Positions 3,262-11,885 of a stretch of 11,885 nucleotides of DNA are shown in pieces. The translations under genes were made by a program, and so were the position numbers. Below the pieces are notes generated by a model that searched no databases, was not told where the DNA came from, and was given only the letters and a program-made list of their open reading frames with translations. Origin of the DNA: Deltaproteobacteria bacterium RIFOXYA12_FULL_61_11 (GTDB taxonomy: Bacteria > Bdellovibrionota_F > JAHFAK01 > YA12-FULL-61-11); NCBI GenBank assembly GCA_001799195.1, contig MGSU01000063.1, forward strand, positions 1 through 11,885, written 5' to 3'. The stretch's first letter is position 1. Each line of letters starts with the position of its first letter.

Positions 3262-3471
3262 ATGGCGGAACCGTCAGAATCCGTTAAGGATGCAATGAAC
3301 CACCTCGGCGTGGCGAAGGACTCGGTCTACCGCTGGATCGAGGCCAAAGGCCTGCCCGCGCACCGGGTCAGCAGGCTCTGGAAGTTCAAGCTTTCGGATC
3401 TCGACGAGTGGGTACGTGCCGGCGGGGCGGGAGATGACGACGAGATACCCGGCAGGACAGCGAAGAAATGA
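3262..3471 (+). CDS. HTH_17/excisionase-type (MerR-like) DNA-binding protein
   Basis: A 69-residue protein made almost entirely of a winged HTH_17 domain. It has DAMNHLGVAKDSVYRWIEAKG (10-30) as the helix-turn-helix, then LPAHRVSRLWKFKLSDLDEW (31-50), the beta wing and closing helix typical of excisionase-family proteins. The tail is acidic then basic (GDDDEIPGRTAKK). It is a DNA binder without a catalytic part. The stop overlaps the hsdR ATG (ATGA, 3468-3471), so the two are translationally coupled. This suggests control of the restriction operon rather than phage excision, though a directionality factor for the upstream recombinase is an alternative. The family call is firm; the role is inferred. 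Confidence 0.9.
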   Translation: MAEPSESVKDAMNHLGVAKDSVYRWIEAKGLPAHRVSRLWKFKLSDLDEWVRAGGAGDDDEIPGRTAKK

Positions 3472-5840
3472 CGATGAACGAGGCCGACACCTGCCGCAAG
3501 TTCGTCGTCCCCAAGCTCCAGTCTTCTGGATGGGACGGCGAACCGCACAGTATCAACGAACAAGTTACGTTCACCGATGGCCGCATCATCGTGGCTGGCC
3601 GCAAAGCTCGACGCCGGCCAGGCAAGCGCGCCGACTACATCCTCCGCTTTCGCCCCGACATGCCAGTGGCCGTCGTCGAAGCCAAGCCCGAGTACAAAAC
3701 GCCTGGCGAGGGTCTCCAGCAGGCGAAAGACTACGCAGAGATCCTCGGTCTCAAGTTCGCTTACTCCACCAATGGTCTTGGGATCGTCGAGTACGACTAC
3801 ACTACTGGCATTGAACGGGAGATAGACACCTTCCCCATGCCCGACGAGCTCTGGCGACGGCTGTGCGGCAACGAAAAGCTCTCGGGGAAGCAAGCCGAGA
3901 GACTCCTCACCCCGAGCTACCATCTGAGCGGCAAATCGCCTCGCTACTACCAGAACATCGCCATCAACCGCACCATCCAGTCGGTTCTTCAGGGCAAGCG
4001 TCGCATCCTCCTCACGATGGCGACCGGTACGGGCAAGACGGTCGTGGCCTTCCAGATCTGCTGGAAGCTCTGGTCGGCCAAGTGGAACCGCGACGGAGCA
4101 CCGCGCCGACCCCGCATCTTGTACCTGTCGGACCGGACCATCCTTATCGACGATCCCAAGGACAAGACCTTCGCGCCCTTCGGCGACGCCCGTTGGAAAA
4201 TAGAGGGCGGCGTGGCTCAGAAGGGCCGCGAGATGTACTTCGCCATCTACCAGGCTCTTGCACAAGATGAGCGCCGTCCCGGCCTCTATCGCGAATATCC
4301 GCCCGACTTCTTCGACCTCATCGTGGTCGACGAGTGCCATCGCGGCAGCGCCGGTGACACGAGCAACTGGCGCGAGATCCTCGAATACTTCGAGCCCTCC
4401 TTCCAGCTCGGCATGACCGCTACGCCGCAACGAAAGGACAATGCAAACACCTACCGCTACTTCGGCGAGCCGATCTACATGTACAGCTTGCGCCAAGGTA
4501 TCGAAGACGGCTTCCTGGCCCCGTATCGGGTTCACCGCATCATCACCACCTGGGACGCGGCAGGCTGGCGCCCCAGCAAGGGAGAACTCGATCGCTACGG
4601 CCGTGAGATCCCCGACGAGGAGTACCATACCAACGACTTCGAGCGGGTGGTTGCCCTGAAAGCTCGTACGGAGGCTGTCGCGACCCACTTGTCCAACTTC
4701 CTGCGCGGCACGGATCGCTATGCCAAGACCATCGTGTTCTGCGTGGACCAAGAACACGCCAACGAGATGCGGCGCAGCCTCAACAACCACAACGCCGACC
4801 TGAGCAAGAAGAACGCCGACTACGTTTGCCGAGTGACCGCCGATGAAGGCGATCTTGGTCGCGGCTACCTCAGCAACTTCCAAGATCTGGAACGACAAAC
4901 GCCGGTCATCCTCACGACCTCGCAGATGCTGACGACTGGCGTGGACGCCCCGACGGTCCAGAACATCGTGCTCATGCGAGTCATCAACTCGATGACCGAT
5001 TTCAAACAGATTATAGGGCGCGGCACCCGCGTACGAGACGACTACGGCAAGCTGTTCTTCAACATCCTTGACTACACCGGAACAGCGACGCGCATGTTCG
5101 CCGATCCTGAATTCGACGGGGATCCTACGATTGAAACCGAACAGGAGATCGACGATTCAGGCGAACCTACTACCCAAGAGACCGTGCTCAAGCCGGAAGA
5201 AAAGGAGCTAGCGCCGGTCGTCGCCATCGGCGAGGCATTGCCACCGGATGAAGGCTGCATCGGCGAACGTCGTAAGTTCTACTTCGACGGCGGCAGCGTT
5301 GAAATCACGGCCCACATGGTCTTTGAACTCGATCCGGATGGCACGCAACTCCGGGTCGTCAAGTTCACCGACTACACCGCCGACAAGGTCCGAACCCTGT
5401 ACCGCAACGCGGCGGAGCTTCGCGGAGAGTGGGCCGACCCCCAGCAGCGCCGTGCGATCATAGAGAAGCTCGCCGAGCGCGGCATCGACTTCGATGAGTT
5501 GGCGCTGGTGGCGCACCAACCCGAGGCCGACCCGCTCGACCTCCTCTGTCACCTGGCGTTCAACGCCCCACTGCGGACCCGTCGTGAGCGAGCGCAGCGT
5601 CTTCGCAAGGACAAGCGCGATTTCTTCGACGCCTTCGAGGCCAAGGCTCGGCAGATCTTGGACGAACTGCTCGACAAGTACACCGAGCACGGCACGGCGC
5701 AATTCGTATTACCCGAGGTGCTCGAAGTTCCGCCGATCAGCGAGCACGGGAACGTGATCGAGATAGCCGGATACTTCGGCGGCGAGGCCAAGCTCATCGA
5801 AGCAGTCCACCGGTTGCAGACGCTGCTCTATGCGGCGTAA
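3468..5840 (+). CDS. hsdR: Type I restriction enzyme R subunit (EcoEI-like HsdR)
   Basis: A 790-residue subunit that gives the type I complex its ATP-driven DNA translocation and cleavage. The N-terminal nuclease domain shows the PD-(D/E)XK signature, with Asp56 in RADYIL and Glu71-x-Lys73 in VVEAKPE. The SF2 helicase follows: Walker A ATGTGKT at 185-191, DECH at 288-291, TATP at 317-320, GVDAP at 491-495 and QIIGRGTR at 514-521. The C-terminal third (about 560-790) matches the EcoEI R C-terminal type that contacts the methylase core. Length and complete motifs suggest an active enzyme of the type IB (EcoEI-like) group. The start ATG overlaps the HTH_17 stop; a second in-frame ATG sits six bases later (3474). 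hsdM follows 11 bases after the stop. Confidence 0.96.
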   Translation: MTMNEADTCRKFVVPKLQSSGWDGEPHSINEQVTFTDGRIIVAGRKARRRPGKRADYILRFRPDMPVAVVEAKPEYKTPGEGLQQAKDYAEILGLKFAYSTNGLGIVEYDYTTGIEREIDTFPMPDELWRRLCGNEKLSGKQAERLLTPSYHLSGKSPRYYQNIAINRTIQSVLQGKRRILLTMATGTGKTVVAFQICWKLWSAKWNRDGAPRRPRILYLSDRTILIDDPKDKTFAPFGDARWKIEGGVAQKGREMYFAIYQALAQDERRPGLYREYPPDFFDLIVVDECHRGSAGDTSNWREILEYFEPSFQLGMTATPQRKDNANTYRYFGEPIYMYSLRQGIEDGFLAPYRVHRIITTWDAAGWRPSKGELDRYGREIPDEEYHTNDFERVVALKARTEAVATHLSNFLRGTDRYAKTIVFCVDQEHANEMRRSLNNHNADLSKKNADYVCRVTADEGDLGRGYLSNFQDLERQTPVILTTSQMLTTGVDAPTVQNIVLMRVINSMTDFKQIIGRGTRVRDDYGKLFFNILDYTGTATRMFADPEFDGDPTIETEQEIDDSGEPTTQETVLKPEEKELAPVVAIGEALPPDEGCIGERRKFYFDGGSVEITAHMVFELDPDGTQLRVVKFTDYTADKVRTLYRNAAELRGEWADPQQRRAIIEKLAERGIDFDELALVAHQPEADPLDLLCHLAFNAPLRTRRERAQRLRKDKRDFFDAFEAKARQILDELLDKYTEHGTAQFVLPEVLEVPPISEHGNVIEIAGYFGGEAKLIEAVHRLQTLLYAA

Positions 5841-5851
5841 AGTAGGAGACC

Positions 5852-7444
5852 ATGGCTCGAATCAAGAAACCCAAAGCTGATGCCCTCCCGCAGACCACGG
5901 CACAACAGCTCGGTAGCCTTATCAAGTCGGCGCGCGACCTCATGCGCAAAGACAAGGGCCTCTCGACCGACCTCGACCGCCTGCCCCTCCTGACCTGGGT
6001 GATGTTTCTCAAGTTCCTCGACGATATGGAACAGCTCGAGGAGTCGAAATCCAGGATGCGCGGCGAGGAACACAAAGGCGCAATAGAAGCTCCCTACCGT
6101 TGGCGGGATTGGGGCGCACAGGAGGCTGGCATCACTGGCCCTGAGCTGCTCGCGTTCATCAACCACGAAGAGGCGACACGCCCCGACGGCACCAAGGGAC
6201 CGGGCCTACTCACGTACCTGCGAGGACTCCAGGGGAACGGCGACAACACCCACGGTCGGCGGCGACGTGTGATCGCCTCGGTATTCAAAGACATCACCTG
6301 CAGGATGCTCTCGGGTTATCTGCTGCGCGATGTCATCAACAAGCTGAACGGCATCCGCTTCCTGGCGAAGGAGGAGCTGTTCACCCTGGGACACCTCTAC
6401 GAGACCATGCTTCGCGAAATGCGCGACGCGGCAGGCGACAACGGCGAGTTCTACACCCCACGCGCCGTGGTGCGCTTCATGGTCGCGGTGACCGATCCAC
6501 GGCTTGGCGAAACAGTCATGGACCCAGCCTGCGGAACCGGTGGCTTCCTCGTCGAGGCGTATACCCATCTCGAAAAACAGTGCAAGACCATCGCCGACCG
6601 ACGTGTCTTGCAGGAGAGGAGCCTCTTCGGCGGCGAGGCCAAGCCGTTGCCGTTCTTGCTCTGCCAGATGAACCTACTGCTCCACGGGCTGGAAACGCCG
6701 CAGATCGATCCCGAGAACAGCCTGCGCCTGAAGCTGACCGAACTGGGAGACAAGGATCGGGTTGACGTCATCCTCACCAATCCACCCTTCGGCGGTGAGG
6801 AGGAGGCGGGCATCAAGGGCAACTTCCCCGCAGACCTACAGACCGCGGAGACCGCCCTGCTGTTCTTGCAGCTCATCATGCGCCGCTTGAAGCGACCGGG
6901 CCACGGGTCGGCGAGCGGTGGACGGGCCGCGGTCGTCGTCCCGAATGGGACCCTATTCGGCGATGGCGTGTGTGGCCGGATCAAGGAGCTACTCCTCAAG
7001 GAGTACAACCTTCACACGGTGGTGCGCCTGCCCAACGGCGTGTTCGCGCCCTACACCAGTATCCCGACCAACCTCCTCTTCTTCGACCGTTCGGGACTAA
7101 CCAGAGAGGTGTGGTTCTACGAGCTGCCCCTGCCGGATGGCCGGAAGAACTACACCAAGACCCAGCCCATGCAGTTCGAGGAGTTTACCGACTGCCTCGC
7201 CTGGTGGCAGAAGCGCGAGGAGAACGAGCACGCCTGGAAGGTCGAGGTCAAGGTCATCCTCAAGTACAACGAGGGGGGTCAGCTCGTGTCTGCCAACCTC
7301 GATCTCAAGAATCCTCATGCGCCCGAAGCGCTTGAGCACCTACCGCCCGAGCAACTCGCCGATGACATCCTCGAGAAAGAGCGGCGTATCATCGAGATCA
7401 TGGAAGAGATCAAGGCCGAGCTGGCAAAAGGGGCTTCAGCGTGA
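5852..7444 (+). CDS. hsdM: Type I restriction-modification methyltransferase M subunit (HsdM)
   Basis: A 530-residue N6-adenine DNA methyltransferase. It uses S-adenosylmethionine to methylate the site chosen by HsdS, and it forms the core to which HsdR binds. The N-terminal helical HsdM domain (about 15-165) is followed by the N6_Mtase domain. That domain has EFYTPR at 199-204, the AdoMet motif DPACGTGGF at 224-232 and the catalytic NPPF at 310-313. The C-terminal helix (LADDILEKERRIIEIMEEIK) is normal for the family. The ATG at 5852 has AGGAG three bases upstream and lies 11 bases after hsdR. The stop overlaps the GTG of a mini-ORF (GTGA, 7441-7444). All motifs are intact. Confidence 0.97.
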   Translation: MARIKKPKADALPQTTAQQLGSLIKSARDLMRKDKGLSTDLDRLPLLTWVMFLKFLDDMEQLEESKSRMRGEEHKGAIEAPYRWRDWGAQEAGITGPELLAFINHEEATRPDGTKGPGLLTYLRGLQGNGDNTHGRRRRVIASVFKDITCRMLSGYLLRDVINKLNGIRFLAKEELFTLGHLYETMLREMRDAAGDNGEFYTPRAVVRFMVAVTDPRLGETVMDPACGTGGFLVEAYTHLEKQCKTIADRRVLQERSLFGGEAKPLPFLLCQMNLLLHGLETPQIDPENSLRLKLTELGDKDRVDVILTNPPFGGEEEAGIKGNFPADLQTAETALLFLQLIMRRLKRPGHGSASGGRAAVVVPNGTLFGDGVCGRIKELLLKEYNLHTVVRLPNGVFAPYTSIPTNLLFFDRSGLTREVWFYELPLPDGRKNYTKTQPMQFEEFTDCLAWWQKREENEHAWKVEVKVILKYNEGGQLVSANLDLKNPHAPEALEHLPPEQLADDILEKERRIIEIMEEIKAELAKGASA

Positions 7445-7521
7445 AATCGAACGAGCCAAAATCGGGCAGCGGAGCAAGGTTGTATTTGACTCATTCATGG
7501 CATTTGGAATTTCCAGTATGA
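7441..7521 (+). CDS. Candidate 26-residue mini-ORF bridging hsdM and the KilA-N gene
   Basis: A GTG overlaps the hsdM stop (GTGA at 7441-7444) and is preceded by AAAAGGGG (7426-7433) at a 7-base spacing. The frame (MKSNEPKSGSG...) stays open for 26 codons and ends with TGA 7519-7521, which overlaps the KilA-N ATG (7518). It therefore fills the whole gap and links two genes by start/stop overlaps at both ends. No family is recognised. It may simply keep ribosomes moving into the next gene, or the overlaps may be chance. Two similar mini-ORFs follow in the operon, which makes chance less attractive. Confidence 0.4.
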   Translation: MKSNEPKSGSGARLYLTHSWHLEFPV

Positions 7522-8354
7522 GCACGACAACGGGCCGCACTATCATCGTAGAGGGTACGAAGATTACCGTCACAGGACGAGGCGACGAGGAATTCATTTC
7601 GCTCACCGACATGCTTCGTGCCAAGGTGGGTGACTTTTTTATCTCCGACTGGTTGCGAAATCGCAACACATTGGAGTTTTTGGGTATATTGGAAAGTGTT
7701 CACAACCCTAGGTTTAATTGTGGCGAATTCGCCATAATTAAAAGCCAGGCCGGCCTCAACAGCTACCGGATCAGCGTCAAGGATTGGGTTGAGAAGACGG
7801 GCGCCATCGGTCTCCGAGCGACAGCAGGGAGATATGGTGGTACGTACGCTCATCCGGACATCGCTTTCGAATTCGCGATGTGGATCAGTCCTGCCTTCAA
7901 GGTCTACCTCATCAAAGAATTCAAGCGCCTCAAGGACGAGGAAGCCGAGCGTAACTCGCGCGAGTGGAGCTTCCAGCGCACGCTCGCCAAGGTAAACTAC
8001 CGGATCCACACGGACGCTATCCAGGAGCACCTGATCCCGCCGGAGCTGACCAAAGCCCAGGTCCAGCTCGTCTACGCCTCCGAGGCCGATCTCTTGAACA
8101 TGGCCCTGTTCGGTAAGACGGCAGCCGAGTGGCGTCGGCACCATTCCAAGCTCGCAGGCAACCTGCGCGACCATGCCACGCTCGAGCAGCTCGTTGTGCT
8201 CTCGAACCTCGAAAGCCTGAATTCTGTGATGATTCACCAGGGCCTTGCCGCTTCCGAACGCCTGCAGCAACTCAACACGATCGCGATCACGCAGATGCGC
8301 TCCCTGGTGACGTCAGCCTCCGTGAAGCAACTGACCACAAGGGGCAAGCGATGA
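7518..8354 (+). CDS. KilA-N domain protein inside the type I R-M operon
   Basis: A 278-residue protein. Residues about 8-135 form a KilA-N DNA-binding domain: FISLTDM (26-32), WLRNRNTLEFLGI (45-57), AGLNSYRISVKDW (78-90), GRYGGTYAHPDIAFEFAMWISPAFKVYLIKEF (104-135 region, split by a conserved glycine turn). The C-terminal half is helical and charged, with no enzyme motif seen; it may serve for oligomerisation or partner contact. KilA-N is known from phage and large DNA virus proteins. Its place between hsdM and hsdS suggests a regulatory or accessory role in restriction, or antiphage sensing; this is inference. ATG 7518 is chosen (GGAA at 7506-7509); an ATG at 7497 would add seven residues. 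The codons for the N-terminal domain are AT-rich compared with the rest. Confidence 0.93.
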   Translation: MSTTTGRTIIVEGTKITVTGRGDEEFISLTDMLRAKVGDFFISDWLRNRNTLEFLGILESVHNPRFNCGEFAIIKSQAGLNSYRISVKDWVEKTGAIGLRATAGRYGGTYAHPDIAFEFAMWISPAFKVYLIKEFKRLKDEEAERNSREWSFQRTLAKVNYRIHTDAIQEHLIPPELTKAQVQLVYASEADLLNMALFGKTAAEWRRHHSKLAGNLRDHATLEQLVVLSNLESLNSVMIHQGLAASERLQQLNTIAITQMRSLVTSASVKQLTTRGKR

Positions 8355-8443
8355 CGAGGCCTGGACACCTGCCGCTCTCAGCCCAGGAGAAGCACGAGGT
8401 TTTCCGTGAGTTTCGCGACGAAACCGAAGAGGAAGGCGAGTGA
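8351..8443 (+). CDS. Candidate 30-residue mini-ORF bridging the KilA-N gene and hsdS
   Basis: The ATG overlaps the KilA-N stop (ATGA at 8351-8354) and has AAGGGG (8339-8344) six bases upstream. The frame runs 30 codons (MTRPGHLPLSAQEK..., acidic end EEEGE). It stops at 8441-8443, sharing one base with the hsdS ATG (TGATG). The sequence looks like a short charged helix with a Pro/Leu start rather than random arginine-rich out-of-frame text, so I lean to a real coding frame. I recognise no family. Its role could be structural coupling of translation or a small accessory peptide. Confidence 0.5.
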   Translation: MTRPGHLPLSAQEKHEVFREFRDETEEEGE

Positions 8444-9594
8444 TGAGTGCTACGTGGCCCATAGTGGCTCTGGGAGAGGTGCTGACCAAGTCAGAAGCAT
8501 GGATCGATCTCGCACCCGAGGTCGAGTACCAGGAGGTGACTGTCCATCTCTGGGGGCGAGGCGTCTCTCAGAGGCGACAAGTAATCGGCGCCGAGATCGG
8601 CAGCGACCGTCGTCGTCAGGTGCGCTCCCGCCAGTTCATTCTTTCCCGGATCGATGCCCGCAACGGGGCGTTCGGTCTTGTTCCCGCAGAACTTGACGGT
8701 GCAGTGGTGTCGAACGATTTTCCGACCTTCGATGTTCATGAAAACCGAATGCTGCCAGAGTATCTGGGATGGCTAAGTCGCACAGCCACGTTCGTTGATG
8801 CGTGCAAGGCCGCTAGCGAGGGCACGACCAACCGGGTTCGGCTGAAGGAAGACAAGTTCCTGCAAATGCCCTTGTCCTTGCCCCCGCTATCCGAGCAGCA
8901 ACGCATCGTGGCGAAGATCGAACGGCTGGCCGGGTTGGTGGATGAGGCGAAGAGGCTGCGGGCGAAGATCGAATTGGACCACCGCCGCTTGCTTCTATCG
9001 TGTTTTAACCAAGTTGTTCAGGGCGCGGGTTGGCGAAAAATGTCCGGTGTTGCCCCCTTGGTGCGGCGCGAAGTCAAGATCGATCCAAATGTTGAGTATC
9101 CGGAGTTAGGGATTCGCTCGTTTGGAAGGGGTACGTTTCATAAACCGGCACTCTCGGGCATGGAAGTCGGAAGTAAACGCCTGTTTCAAATCGCCAAGGG
9201 GGATTTGATTTTCAGCAATGTCTTTGCATGGGAAGGAGGTATTGCTGTTGCGCAAGACCAAGACGATAGTCGTTTTGGTTCGCATCGATTCATTACCTGT
9301 GTTCCTGATCCTGTGGTTGCTACCTCAAATTTCCTTTGTTTCTACTTCCTAACCATGCCAGGACTCTTGGAGATAGGTGAGGCATCCCCGGGAGGAGCGG
9401 GTCGTAACCGCACCCTGGGTCTTAACGCACTCTCACAAATCAAAGTACCTGTGCCGGATATTCGGAAGCAAGTTTGGTTCGATAGTGTACATGCAGGTCT
9501 AAGGGCGAAAGAGCAAATGCAGCAAGTCGCAGATCGAGGTATTGATTCGATTGTGCCAATAGTACTCCAACAGGTGTTCAACGGGGCATTATGA
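8443..9594 (+). CDS. hsdS: Type I restriction-modification specificity subunit (HsdS)
   Basis: A 383-residue DNA-recognition subunit. It has two target-recognition domains, each followed by a helical spacer, the normal full-length HsdS plan. TRD1 spans about 1-145 and ends with the typical LSLPPLSEQQRIV (144-156) leading into spacer helix 1 (to about 192). TRD2 spans about 195-335, with a more diverged spacer 2 (PVPDIRKQVWFDSV...). The two TRDs are related: VEYxE at 27 and 217, GRG at 38 and 228, and GxExGSxR at 49 and 239, all offset by 190 residues. Specificity cannot be read from this. The ATG at 8443 has AGGAAGG (8430-8436) six bases upstream; a GTG at 8440 is less likely. TRD2 is encoded by lower-GC DNA than TRD1. 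Confidence 0.94.
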   Translation: MSATWPIVALGEVLTKSEAWIDLAPEVEYQEVTVHLWGRGVSQRRQVIGAEIGSDRRRQVRSRQFILSRIDARNGAFGLVPAELDGAVVSNDFPTFDVHENRMLPEYLGWLSRTATFVDACKAASEGTTNRVRLKEDKFLQMPLSLPPLSEQQRIVAKIERLAGLVDEAKRLRAKIELDHRRLLLSCFNQVVQGAGWRKMSGVAPLVRREVKIDPNVEYPELGIRSFGRGTFHKPALSGMEVGSKRLFQIAKGDLIFSNVFAWEGGIAVAQDQDDSRFGSHRFITCVPDPVVATSNFLCFYFLTMPGLLEIGEASPGGAGRNRTLGLNALSQIKVPVPDIRKQVWFDSVHAGLRAKEQMQQVADRGIDSIVPIVLQQVFNGAL

Positions 9595-9710
9595 TCATGA
9601 ATGCGCGCCGGGTGACCATCACGGCCGAGAGCGAAAAACCGAGTGACGACCTAATCAAGGATCTGGACAAGCACCTGACCGGCGTCTCGGAAAAGTGGCG
9701 GTTGGAGTAG
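9591..9710 (+). CDS. Candidate 39-residue mini-ORF between hsdS and the large NTPase gene
   Basis: The ATG overlaps the hsdS stop (ATGA at 9591-9594), with GGGG at 9583-9586 close upstream; a second in-frame ATG is at 9597. The product, beginning MIMNARRVTITAE and ending EKWRLE, is 39 residues, charged and likely helical (SDDLIKDLDKHL). The TAG at 9708-9710 lies 9 bases before the ATG of the long downstream ORF. No family is recognised. The balanced composition and operon spacing favour a real small gene. It could also be a remnant, or a leader whose translation supports the next gene. Confidence 0.5.
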   Translation: MIMNARRVTITAESEKPSDDLIKDLDKHLTGVSEKWRLE

Positions 9711-9719
9711 GACCCGACG

Positions 9720-11885
9720 ATGGCGAAGAAAGTCGCACCGCCGAAAAGCACTGGAGGAGGTGGATTCGTCTTCGAAGACAAGGTGTGTGCGTGGTTCCTC
9801 GCCCATATGCTGGCCGGAGAACCACCCCTTGATACAACCCTGGGTACACTGGATCGGATCGATTTCCAGACGAGAGTTGACGGCTGGTATCTAGATGACT
9901 TGCTCCTCACGTTATCGGGACCAAGTGGTACTCGACGGTGTGCCTTGTCGGTCAAGAGCAACACCCAGTTTGGCGTCGCGACTGCTCCTCCGGACTTCGT
10001 TAAGGCCGCCTGGGAGCAGTTTCTCCACGAGGGCTCCGACGTTCTCAATGAGGCGGAGAACTACCTGGGCATTGCCACAGCGCCCATTTCCGGCGAACTC
10101 CGCGACGCGATCTCGTTTGTAATCCGAACGGCTCGCGAAGGAGATCCCCCGCTTCTACCCGGCCGATACGCGGATCCGAACTGGGCCAGCGAGACGAAGC
10201 GGTCTCTCTTCGAGAGCTTCACGTGTCCGAATGACCTCGCTATAGGACGCGGCATTACCTCGGCCGACACCGGCAGACTCACCGCACGCCTCCAGGTGCT
10301 CGAGTTCGACTTCGAAGCCACCGTTTCCGAGTCGGAGAAGGAGGCAGTCCAGCGCTGCAGGAGATCTCTGACCAGCCAATCGACGGAGGACGCCCTCGCC
10401 CTCTGGGCCGAGCTGCTGCGGATCTCGGCCACGAAGCGCCCAGTTGCCGGCTGCGTGACACGACTCACGCTATTGAATGAGCTTCGCGGCCGCTTTCGTC
10501 TCGTCGACCTGCCTGACCATCGTGCAGACTGGCGCCGCCTTGAACACCTTTCGACCACGGTACACGCGCAGATACGGGACTCAATTGGTGGGCAGGTGCG
10601 CATCCCGCGCGACAAGGACGTCGCGGCCGTCGGCGAAGCGCTCCATGCATCGCCCGGGGTTGTGCTGCTCGGCCGCTCTGGTATCGGCAAGTCGGTCGTA
10701 GCAAAGATTCTGTCGGACCGAAACACCTCGGATGGCGGGCGATCTCTTTGGTTTGACGCGCGTTCCTTCGACCGTGTCGACTACGCGGCGTTCGAGGCCG
10801 ACCTTGCGCTTTCGCACGAACTGCCGGAGGTCCTCCGCTCCGCACCGAATGCGCGTCCACTCCTGGTTCTCGATGGCTTGGATCGCCTCCGCGACGAGAC
10901 GGCATTCGGAATCGTCGCATTCTTGGTCCGTGGTCTCGGCGAGTCGCGCGGTGAAAGCCCGTGGCGCGTTATCCTCACGTGCCAGACGCCAGAGTGGCCG
11001 CGTCTTCAGGCTCTCCTCCCAAGGGTGGACGTGCCCGTCAACACATGGCCGCTCGTGGAGTGCGAGCCGGTATCGTTCGACGCACTGGAACCAGTGTGGG
11101 AACAGATTCCAAGTGCCTCACGCCTGCGTTTCCAGACGAACCTGCAACCCCTACTCGTCAACCTCAAGATTCTCGACCTAGTCGCAACCCAGATCCTCTC
11201 TGGGGGCAGTGTGGTCACGTCGGGCTGGGTCGGTGAAACAAGTGTCGCTCGTTGGTTCTGGGACGCGAATGTTGCACGCGGGGACGACGCATCTCCAAGA
11301 GCCCGGTTGGTAGCCCTGCTTGCCGAACGGCAGGCTGATGATCTCCGACCTGCACTCCCGTTGCATGCCTTTAATGTTGGAGAGTTGGCGCCTCTTGACG
11401 GCCTGATACGGGATGGCATCTGCCAGCGCAGCGAGGACGACCGCGTCGCCTTCCAGCATGACCTCTTCGGCGACTGGGCTCGCATGCGAATCCTTGCATC
11501 CCGGCATGACGATATCGAGAGCTTTCTTGCCGACCGCCTGGACTCCCCCCTGTGGCATCGGGCGCTTCGCCTCTACGGCATTCACCTGCTGGAGCAGACG
11601 CGTGATCTTGCTCGTTGGCGGGCCACGTTGGCGAGCCTCACCGGACGCGCTGGAAGCGGCGCCGGAGACTGTCTCATTGATTCGCTCTTTTTCGCCGCCA
11701 ACGCGCTACCGCTCCTTGAGGCCGTCCGCGCAGATTTGCTGGCCGAGGATGGCAAGCTCCTCCGCCGACTACTCGGGCGCTTTCTCGTCTTTGCCACGCT
11801 GCCCGACGCTCGCGTTCTCGCGTTCGCGAAGGCCGAGGAACTCGACAGCGATGAAGTGGCGGCTCGGTACCGACGTCCAAACTGG
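9720..11885 (+). CDS. Large P-loop (STAND-like) NTPase with N-terminal nuclease-like domain, 3' end beyond the window
   Basis: From ATG 9720 (AGGA at 9709-9712, 7 bases upstream) the frame has no stop for 722 codons up to the window end, so the C-terminus is missing. Residues 1-100 (GGGGFVFEDKVCAWFL, then DGWYLDDLLL at 54-63 and ALSVKS at 75-80) look like the acidic-plus-xxK layout of PD-(D/E)XK or Cap4-type nucleases. Asp60 and Lys79 would be key, but a Ser at 77 replaces the usual Glu/Gln, so activity is uncertain. The NTPase core has Walker A GRSGIGKS (318-325), Walker B LLVLDGLD (381-388) and a sensor-like VILTC (417-421). FQHDLFGDWAR (578-588) matches the winged-helix motif common in STAND proteins. 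A helical region follows and probably leads to a sensor repeat domain. It lies 9 bases after the mini-ORF, in the R-M operon. The NTPase is clear; the nuclease and antiphage roles are inferred, and Avs-like or other NACHT/STAND families are possible relatives. Confidence 0.88.
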   Translation, partial: MAKKVAPPKSTGGGGFVFEDKVCAWFLAHMLAGEPPLDTTLGTLDRIDFQTRVDGWYLDDLLLTLSGPSGTRRCALSVKSNTQFGVATAPPDFVKAAWEQFLHEGSDVLNEAENYLGIATAPISGELRDAISFVIRTAREGDPPLLPGRYADPNWASETKRSLFESFTCPNDLAIGRGITSADTGRLTARLQVLEFDFEATVSESEKEAVQRCRRSLTSQSTEDALALWAELLRISATKRPVAGCVTRLTLLNELRGRFRLVDLPDHRADWRRLEHLSTTVHAQIRDSIGGQVRIPRDKDVAAVGEALHASPGVVLLGRSGIGKSVVAKILSDRNTSDGGRSLWFDARSFDRVDYAAFEADLALSHELPEVLRSAPNARPLLVLDGLDRLRDETAFGIVAFLVRGLGESRGESPWRVILTCQTPEWPRLQALLPRVDVPVNTWPLVECEPVSFDALEPVWEQIPSASRLRFQTNLQPLLVNLKILDLVATQILSGGSVVTSGWVGETSVARWFWDANVARGDDASPRARLVALLAERQADDLRPALPLHAFNVGELAPLDGLIRDGICQRSEDDRVAFQHDLFGDWARMRILASRHDDIESFLADRLDSPLWHRALRLYGIHLLEQTRDLARWRATLASLTGRAGSGAGDCLIDSLFFAANALPLLEAVRADLLAEDGKLLRRLLGRFLVFATLPDARVLAFAKAEELDSDEVAARYRRPNW

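Follow-up and report, generated by a model that had tools for sequence, protein, structure and literature searches.

A predicted Avs4-related STAND immune receptor with a Cap4-type nuclease domain, encoded 3' of a type I restriction-modification operon

The question raised by this locus is whether the large gene at the 3' end of a type I restriction-modification (R-M) operon forms part of one defense unit with that operon or acts as an immune receptor of its own. The window, by which we mean the whole 11,885-nt stretch of contig MGSU01000063.1 of Deltaproteobacteria bacterium RIFOXYA12_FULL_61_11, holds the operon and the first part of the gene (Table 1). The gene encodes a large effector-STAND-sensor immune receptor, in which an NTPase and sensor of Avs4 type are combined with a nuclease of Cap4 type; it is related to Avs4 but is not Avs4 itself. 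Its domains are laid out as a nuclease effector (residues 1-265), a STAND NTPase (about 275-640), and a helical sensor (about 640-1775).

The preliminary description had proposed an open frame of at least 722 codons, and we indeed find the frame open from the ATG at 9720 for 722 codons, up to the window end, which is the exact start of a 21-N assembly gap. This gap amounts to 7 residues, the same number that the homologue from Paraburkholderia locus L003 has at this point, and the reading frame therefore continues through it. The complete gene specifies 1,775 aa and stops at window-equivalent position 15047, on a contig (C63) that extends to 15472. A stop soon after the window, with no sensor behind it, had been considered beforehand; what follows instead is a long C-terminal sensor that matches the Avs4 profile. 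Full-length homologues with 50% identity are found in two Paraburkholderia, which, together with the intact frame up to the stop, argues that the frame at 9720 is not a chance one.

Table 1. Positions of the genes, domains, and motifs discussed in the text, numbered from the first letter of the window
Feature	Position	Strand	Remarks
hsdR, EcoAI/FtnUII-family type I restriction subunit	3468..5840	+	NF046051, 1045 bits vs cut-off 550
hsdM, type I methyltransferase	5852..7444	+	
KilA-N protein gene between hsdM and hsdS (start approximate)	7500..8354	+	KilA-N E=1.4e-21; PADLOC candidate PDC-S22 E=6e-123
hsdS, type I specificity subunit	8440..9594	+	PADLOC Specificity_I E=2.7e-131
39-aa ORF between hsdS and STAND gene	9591..9710	+	ATGA overlap with hsdS stop; 9-bp gap to STAND gene
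STAND receptor gene, part inside window	9720..11885	+	First 722 codons; 21-N gap begins at window-equivalent 11886
Predicted Cap4-type PD-(D/E)XK nuclease domain, residues 1-265	9720..10514	+	AlphaFold2 model, Foldseek, VIA
E19, predicted active-site glutamate, helix 1	9774..9776	+	Invariant in 25/25 homologues
D59-D60, predicted metal-binding aspartates	9894..9899	+	Invariant in 25/25 homologues
S77-V78-K79, SxK form of (D/E/Q)xK half-motif	9948..9956	+	K in 24/25
D92, first residues of helix after K79 strand	9993..9995	+	Possible relocated acid or helix cap
Walker A (P-loop) GRSGIGKS, residues 318-325	10671..10694	+	Conserved in relatives
Walker B LLVLDGLD, residues 381-388	10860..10883	+	D385 invariant in family alignments
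FQHDLFGDWAR, residues 578-588	11451..11483	+	H580/D581 invariant; aligns to THDIYEEWA of Avs4 (8dgf HMM alignment)

The earlier reading of the protein as a STAND NTPase holds, as Walker A, Walker B, and the late FQHDLFGDWAR motif all lie where it had placed them and are conserved. Judged by profile comparison, the NTPase and sensor are homologous to those of Avs4. An 11-member family profile matched Avs4 (PDB 8dgf) over 275-1223 with E=1.7e-35, the next match being at 9e-4; with a Hymenobacter relative (L013) included, the E value for Avs4 was 3.3e-71, and L013 alone gave 4e-51. The profile of the window's own sub-clade was significant over the NTPase only (E=2.3e-7), and the link between the sensor and Avs4 thus depends on intermediates such as L010 (E=2e-33, with its best stretch in the sensor) and L014 (E=1e-9). 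Because the sensor link passes through these intermediates, the ligand may differ from that of Avs4. The STAND-sensor part of the L003 homologue was modeled with low confidence (pLDDT 52.7), and for that reason we treat as supporting evidence only the outcome of a fold search with this model, in which Avs4 was the single significant match among 350,542 chains (E=2e-14). Against the NCBI equivalog model for Avs4, with its cut-off of 1500 bits, the window protein scores 11.0 bits and L013, the relative nearest Avs4, 442; with 11 bits against 1500, we call the protein Avs4-related and do not file it as Avs4.

The N-terminal domain called for a fold search, since a Pfam search of nine members gave no match and a profile of the domain found no relative among PDB sequences. 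AlphaFold2 predicted a core of alpha-beta-beta-beta-alpha-beta order (helix 15-32; strands 43-49, 60-67, and 70-79; helix 91-102; strand 115-120) with a mean pLDDT of 71.7, a model of moderate confidence built from five aligned sequences. Foldseek against the PDB placed Cap4 at the top (E=3.5e-8), followed by LmuA of Lamassu and Avs3, and with VIA-align the Z score was 14.2 for Cap4, aligned along some 200 residues, and 12.4 for Avs3. In this model, residues 1-265 adopt a PD-(D/E)XK nuclease fold closest to Cap4. That the N terminus resembles Cap4/PD-(D/E)XK effectors had been suggested from a glycine-rich start (12-15), LDDLLL (58-63), and SVK (77-79). All three marks are present, and the modeled fold agrees with the suggestion, including over the first 130 residues, where lack of a nuclease fold would have counted against it.

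The active site of this domain departs from the usual form. Position 77, compared across 25 homologous domains, is Q in 17, S in 7 (the sub-clade of the window), and G in 1, so that the window clade has SxK in place of the canonical (D/E/Q)xK half-motif; its membership in the fold is unaffected. A serine in the catalytic motif had been singled out beforehand as unusual, and it is there, but it is not peculiar to this gene, being fixed in seven homologues from four lineages that are mostly about 30% identical to one another. The SxK sequences share 21 sub-clade-specific positions, one third of which lie close to the active site (77-100). One residue may matter to catalysis: position 92 is D in 7/7 SxK sequences versus 3/17 QxK sequences. 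In the CCGG-family restriction enzymes, the acid has been relocated to the next helix with a K-X12-13-E spacing, and such sites are active (PMC4652773, PMC551604); the K79-X12-D92 spacing equals theirs. It is accordingly conceivable, though rather doubtful, that this is a sub-clade of Avs4-related receptors whose Cap4-type nuclease has a rewired S-x-K site, with D92 as the relocated acid and altered cleavage behavior. We put D92 forward tentatively, since an aspartate at a helix start is common and 10 of the 17 QxK relatives have one two positions earlier.

The three architectural features of the Avs class are present in the protein, which has a central STAND NTPase bearing both Walker motifs, a large C-terminal sensor, and an N-terminal effector of nuclease type. 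It is like Avs4 (AVAST type 4) in its NTPase and long helical sensor, which are homologous by both profile and fold search, the HDxxxxWA motif included. It differs in an N-terminal domain that is about 90 residues longer and of Cap4 type, as well as in its score far under the equivalog cut-off. Known Avs4 carries an Mrr-like nuclease. In the window protein, the best N-terminal matches are to Cap4-type proteins, and the match to the Avs4 profile begins after the N terminus. Avs3 and Avs2 (PDB 8dgc and 9o4e) likewise have an effector ahead of the STAND core, and the Avs3 N terminus is the one that matches the nuclease domain above, but the NTPase and sensor profile of the window family matches them no higher than at P-loop level. 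The alignment with the PADLOC candidate PDC-M54A spanned parts of both nuclease and NTPase (183-418 of the window protein and 14-420 of the L003 protein; E=7e-12 and 7e-13). These alignments, however, scored about 42-45 bits on models of 1621-1657 positions and did not go past the NTPase, so this is not the same family; a full-length PDC-M54A match was not reached, and the PADLOC match was to the first 722 residues, the full-length window protein having none. Cap4 of CBASS, LmuA of Lamassu, and DUF4297-HerA have the nuclease-domain fold in common with our protein, but in place of a STAND sensor their activators are, respectively, a cyclic nucleotide, an SMC-like complex, and HerA.

The two parts of the receptor also occur separately. 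In a Geminocystis protein (L008), the NTPase and sensor recur, with 36-37% identity that includes the far C terminus, but only about 52 residues precede them and there is no nuclease. Conversely, the nuclease domain occurs without a P-loop in proteins of Agrobacterium (L039) and Burkholderia (L049). The modules therefore swap, with the core found without the nuclease and the nuclease without the NTPase, and effector swapping of this kind is expected of STAND immune receptors. Some of these loci show further points of detail. The short Asn-rich N terminus that stands in place of the nuclease in L008 (NIGNLQVNNVNQIVNQNKTVNI; 5943-6100) is possibly an amyloid-type signaling motif that recruits a separate effector. 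L039 (6385-9671, on a plasmid of Agrobacterium Ach5) encodes the Cap4-like nuclease domain in a 560-aa protein, directly 3' of trypsin-like protease genes, and it is possible that this is a separate protease-nuclease defense set. We rejected its identity with a published nuclease-protease pair, as that pair uses an MBL-fold nuclease. In L049 (5893-10395, on a Burkholderia cepacia plasmid), the nuclease domain is carried by a TPR protein and followed by a SIR2 gene.

The distribution of the family is sporadic, with the nuclease domain matched in 2 of 386 sampled genomes apart from the window's own. These two genomes are G245, with a frame of 1,882 aa (L042), and G087, in which the gene is split into two frames inside the domain (L041/L043). 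There are plasmid copies, and two homologues sit on viral contigs; searching the viral contigs with single proteins added no homologue in three scans and only a repeat in a fourth, and phage records gave no match. The plasmid copy of Aromatoleum (L006, 9926-15826) is shortened to 1,485 aa next to an IS1182-family transposase gene, which suggests a receptor disrupted by insertion. The window's phylum is represented by two genomes only, too few for comparing neighborhoods among close relatives. In the preliminary description, homologues lying mostly away from defense genes would have spoken against a role in immunity; they often adjoin TIR, Gabija, BrxL, and NACHT genes. TIR genes lie near both Paraburkholderia copies (L003 and L004), and L004 also has a ThsB TIR gene (Thoeris), patatin-SLOG, and GajA/GajB (Gabija). 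In Geminocystis L008, NACHT and type I R genes adjoin on the opposite strand, and the neighborhood of L014 has a BrxL gene. L015 lies within a satellite- or prophage-like element, and L006 and L007 have integrases, IS elements, and an HNH endonuclease gene nearby.

In the window itself, the STAND gene stands 3' of hsdR-hsdM-KilA-N-hsdS on the same strand. The preliminary description had the gene fused or appended to the hsd operon; it is indeed adjacent on the 3' side, but it is not fused, as the 39-aa ORF lies between. The ATGA overlap, the 9-bp gap, and the lack of any terminator-like or promoter-like site found between hsdS and the STAND gene make co-transcription likely. We consider that the gene is probably cotranscribed with the type I R-M operon yet independent of it in action. 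The 39-aa ORF had no plasmid match and was not found upstream of homologues, for which reasons we rejected it as a conserved partner. The genes 5' of hsdR (one for a DUF2924 protein, one for a large serine recombinase, and small HTH genes) are of the sort seen on mobile islands. A SLFN_AlbA_2 domain gene, truncated by the contig end, follows directly 3' of the STAND gene (L002 6107-6472; window-equivalent 15106 onward).

Taken together, we consider it likely that the gene product is a three-part STAND receptor of the Avs kind, made of a Cap4-type nuclease and an Avs4-type NTPase and sensor, that kills the infected cell on sensing a phage protein and acts independently of R-M. The analysis supports the nuclease fold (by modeling), the NTPase motifs, the homology of NTPase and sensor, and the modularity, from which we infer activation, ligand, DNA cutting, and death as follows. 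In a resting cell, the receptor would be inactive. On infection, the sensor would bind a conserved phage protein; ATP-dependent oligomerization would then bring the nuclease domains together, and these, once assembled, would cut DNA, leading to death of the infected cell. The portal is the first candidate ligand and our best guess, because the Avs4 structure was solved with portal bound (8dgf title). What Avs1 to Avs4 detect is terminase, portal, or another conserved protein of the phage, mostly from the packaging machinery, and they kill by means of nucleases that attack the DNA of both phage and host (PMC12931631).

The preliminary description went further and suggested that the hsd operon and STAND gene could be one combined defense unit. 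In such a unit, the STAND protein might, for example, be a backup for when restriction fails. The shared strand, the ATGA overlap and 9-bp gap of the short ORF, and the terminator that was not found all fit such a unit, as does the occurrence of a type I R gene in the vicinity of L008 and of L053, both homologues. However, the window copy is the only one of eight close homologues in an hsd operon, the others adjoining unrelated defense or mobile-element genes, and the short ORF was not found upstream of homologues. We therefore regard a combined unit as very unlikely; as close homologues adjoin other, unrelated defense systems, the arrangement points to clustering in defense islands rather than to a dedicated R-M unit. 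A housekeeping or regulatory role outside defense is more improbable still: although STAND NTPases include regulators, such a role is difficult to square with the sporadic distribution, the plasmid and viral-contig copies, the nuclease domain, and the defense neighbors.

Two other alternatives concern the sensor and the nuclease of the likely immune receptor rather than its role. The receptor could be a true Avs4 in function, sensing the portal and differing in its effector alone, which would be a sharper form of the explanation we prefer and not exclusive of it. The profile homology of NTPase and sensor to Avs4 makes this plausible, but the large divergence of the sensor, and the range of other proteins sensed by Avs types whose cores are similar (PMC12931631), incline us against it. 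As for the nuclease, activity is not assured with Ser in place of Gln in the catalytic half-motif. The SxK sub-clade might have lost or changed catalysis, its N-terminal domain binding DNA or serving as an oligomerization platform, as would suit the second half-motif, where all seven members have S for Q/E, and the G-x-R of relative L047, which looks degenerate. Yet every SxK sequence retains E19, D59, D60, and K79, although the lineages are only about 30% identical, which implies continued selection, and CCGG-family enzymes with a relocated acid are active (PMC551604, PMC4652773); we therefore think this unlikely. In L047 itself, from Streptomyces (5974-10983), where G-V-R replaces Q-x-K, the nuclease is probably dead, and a type ISP restriction enzyme is encoded nearby.

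Avs proteins and Cap4 nucleases are already known, as is the variability of effectors, and the gene is an unlabeled variant of a known family. Neither the pairing of an Avs4 sensor with a Cap4 nuclease nor the SxK sub-clade has a name in Pfam, NCBIfam, or PADLOC. A literature search, which covered subscription journals little, so that an earlier description is possible, found no account of the pairing. Current annotation does not recognize the family: its members score under the Avs4 cut-off and mostly bear the label "hypothetical protein". The clade-wide SxK motif offers a simple test of how much drift a Cap4-type active site tolerates without losing DNA cutting. A Cap4-type nuclease joined to an NTPase and sensor of Avs4 type, along with a nuclease-free core on a cyanobacterial plasmid, indicates that recombination joins effectors and sensors of different Avs types.
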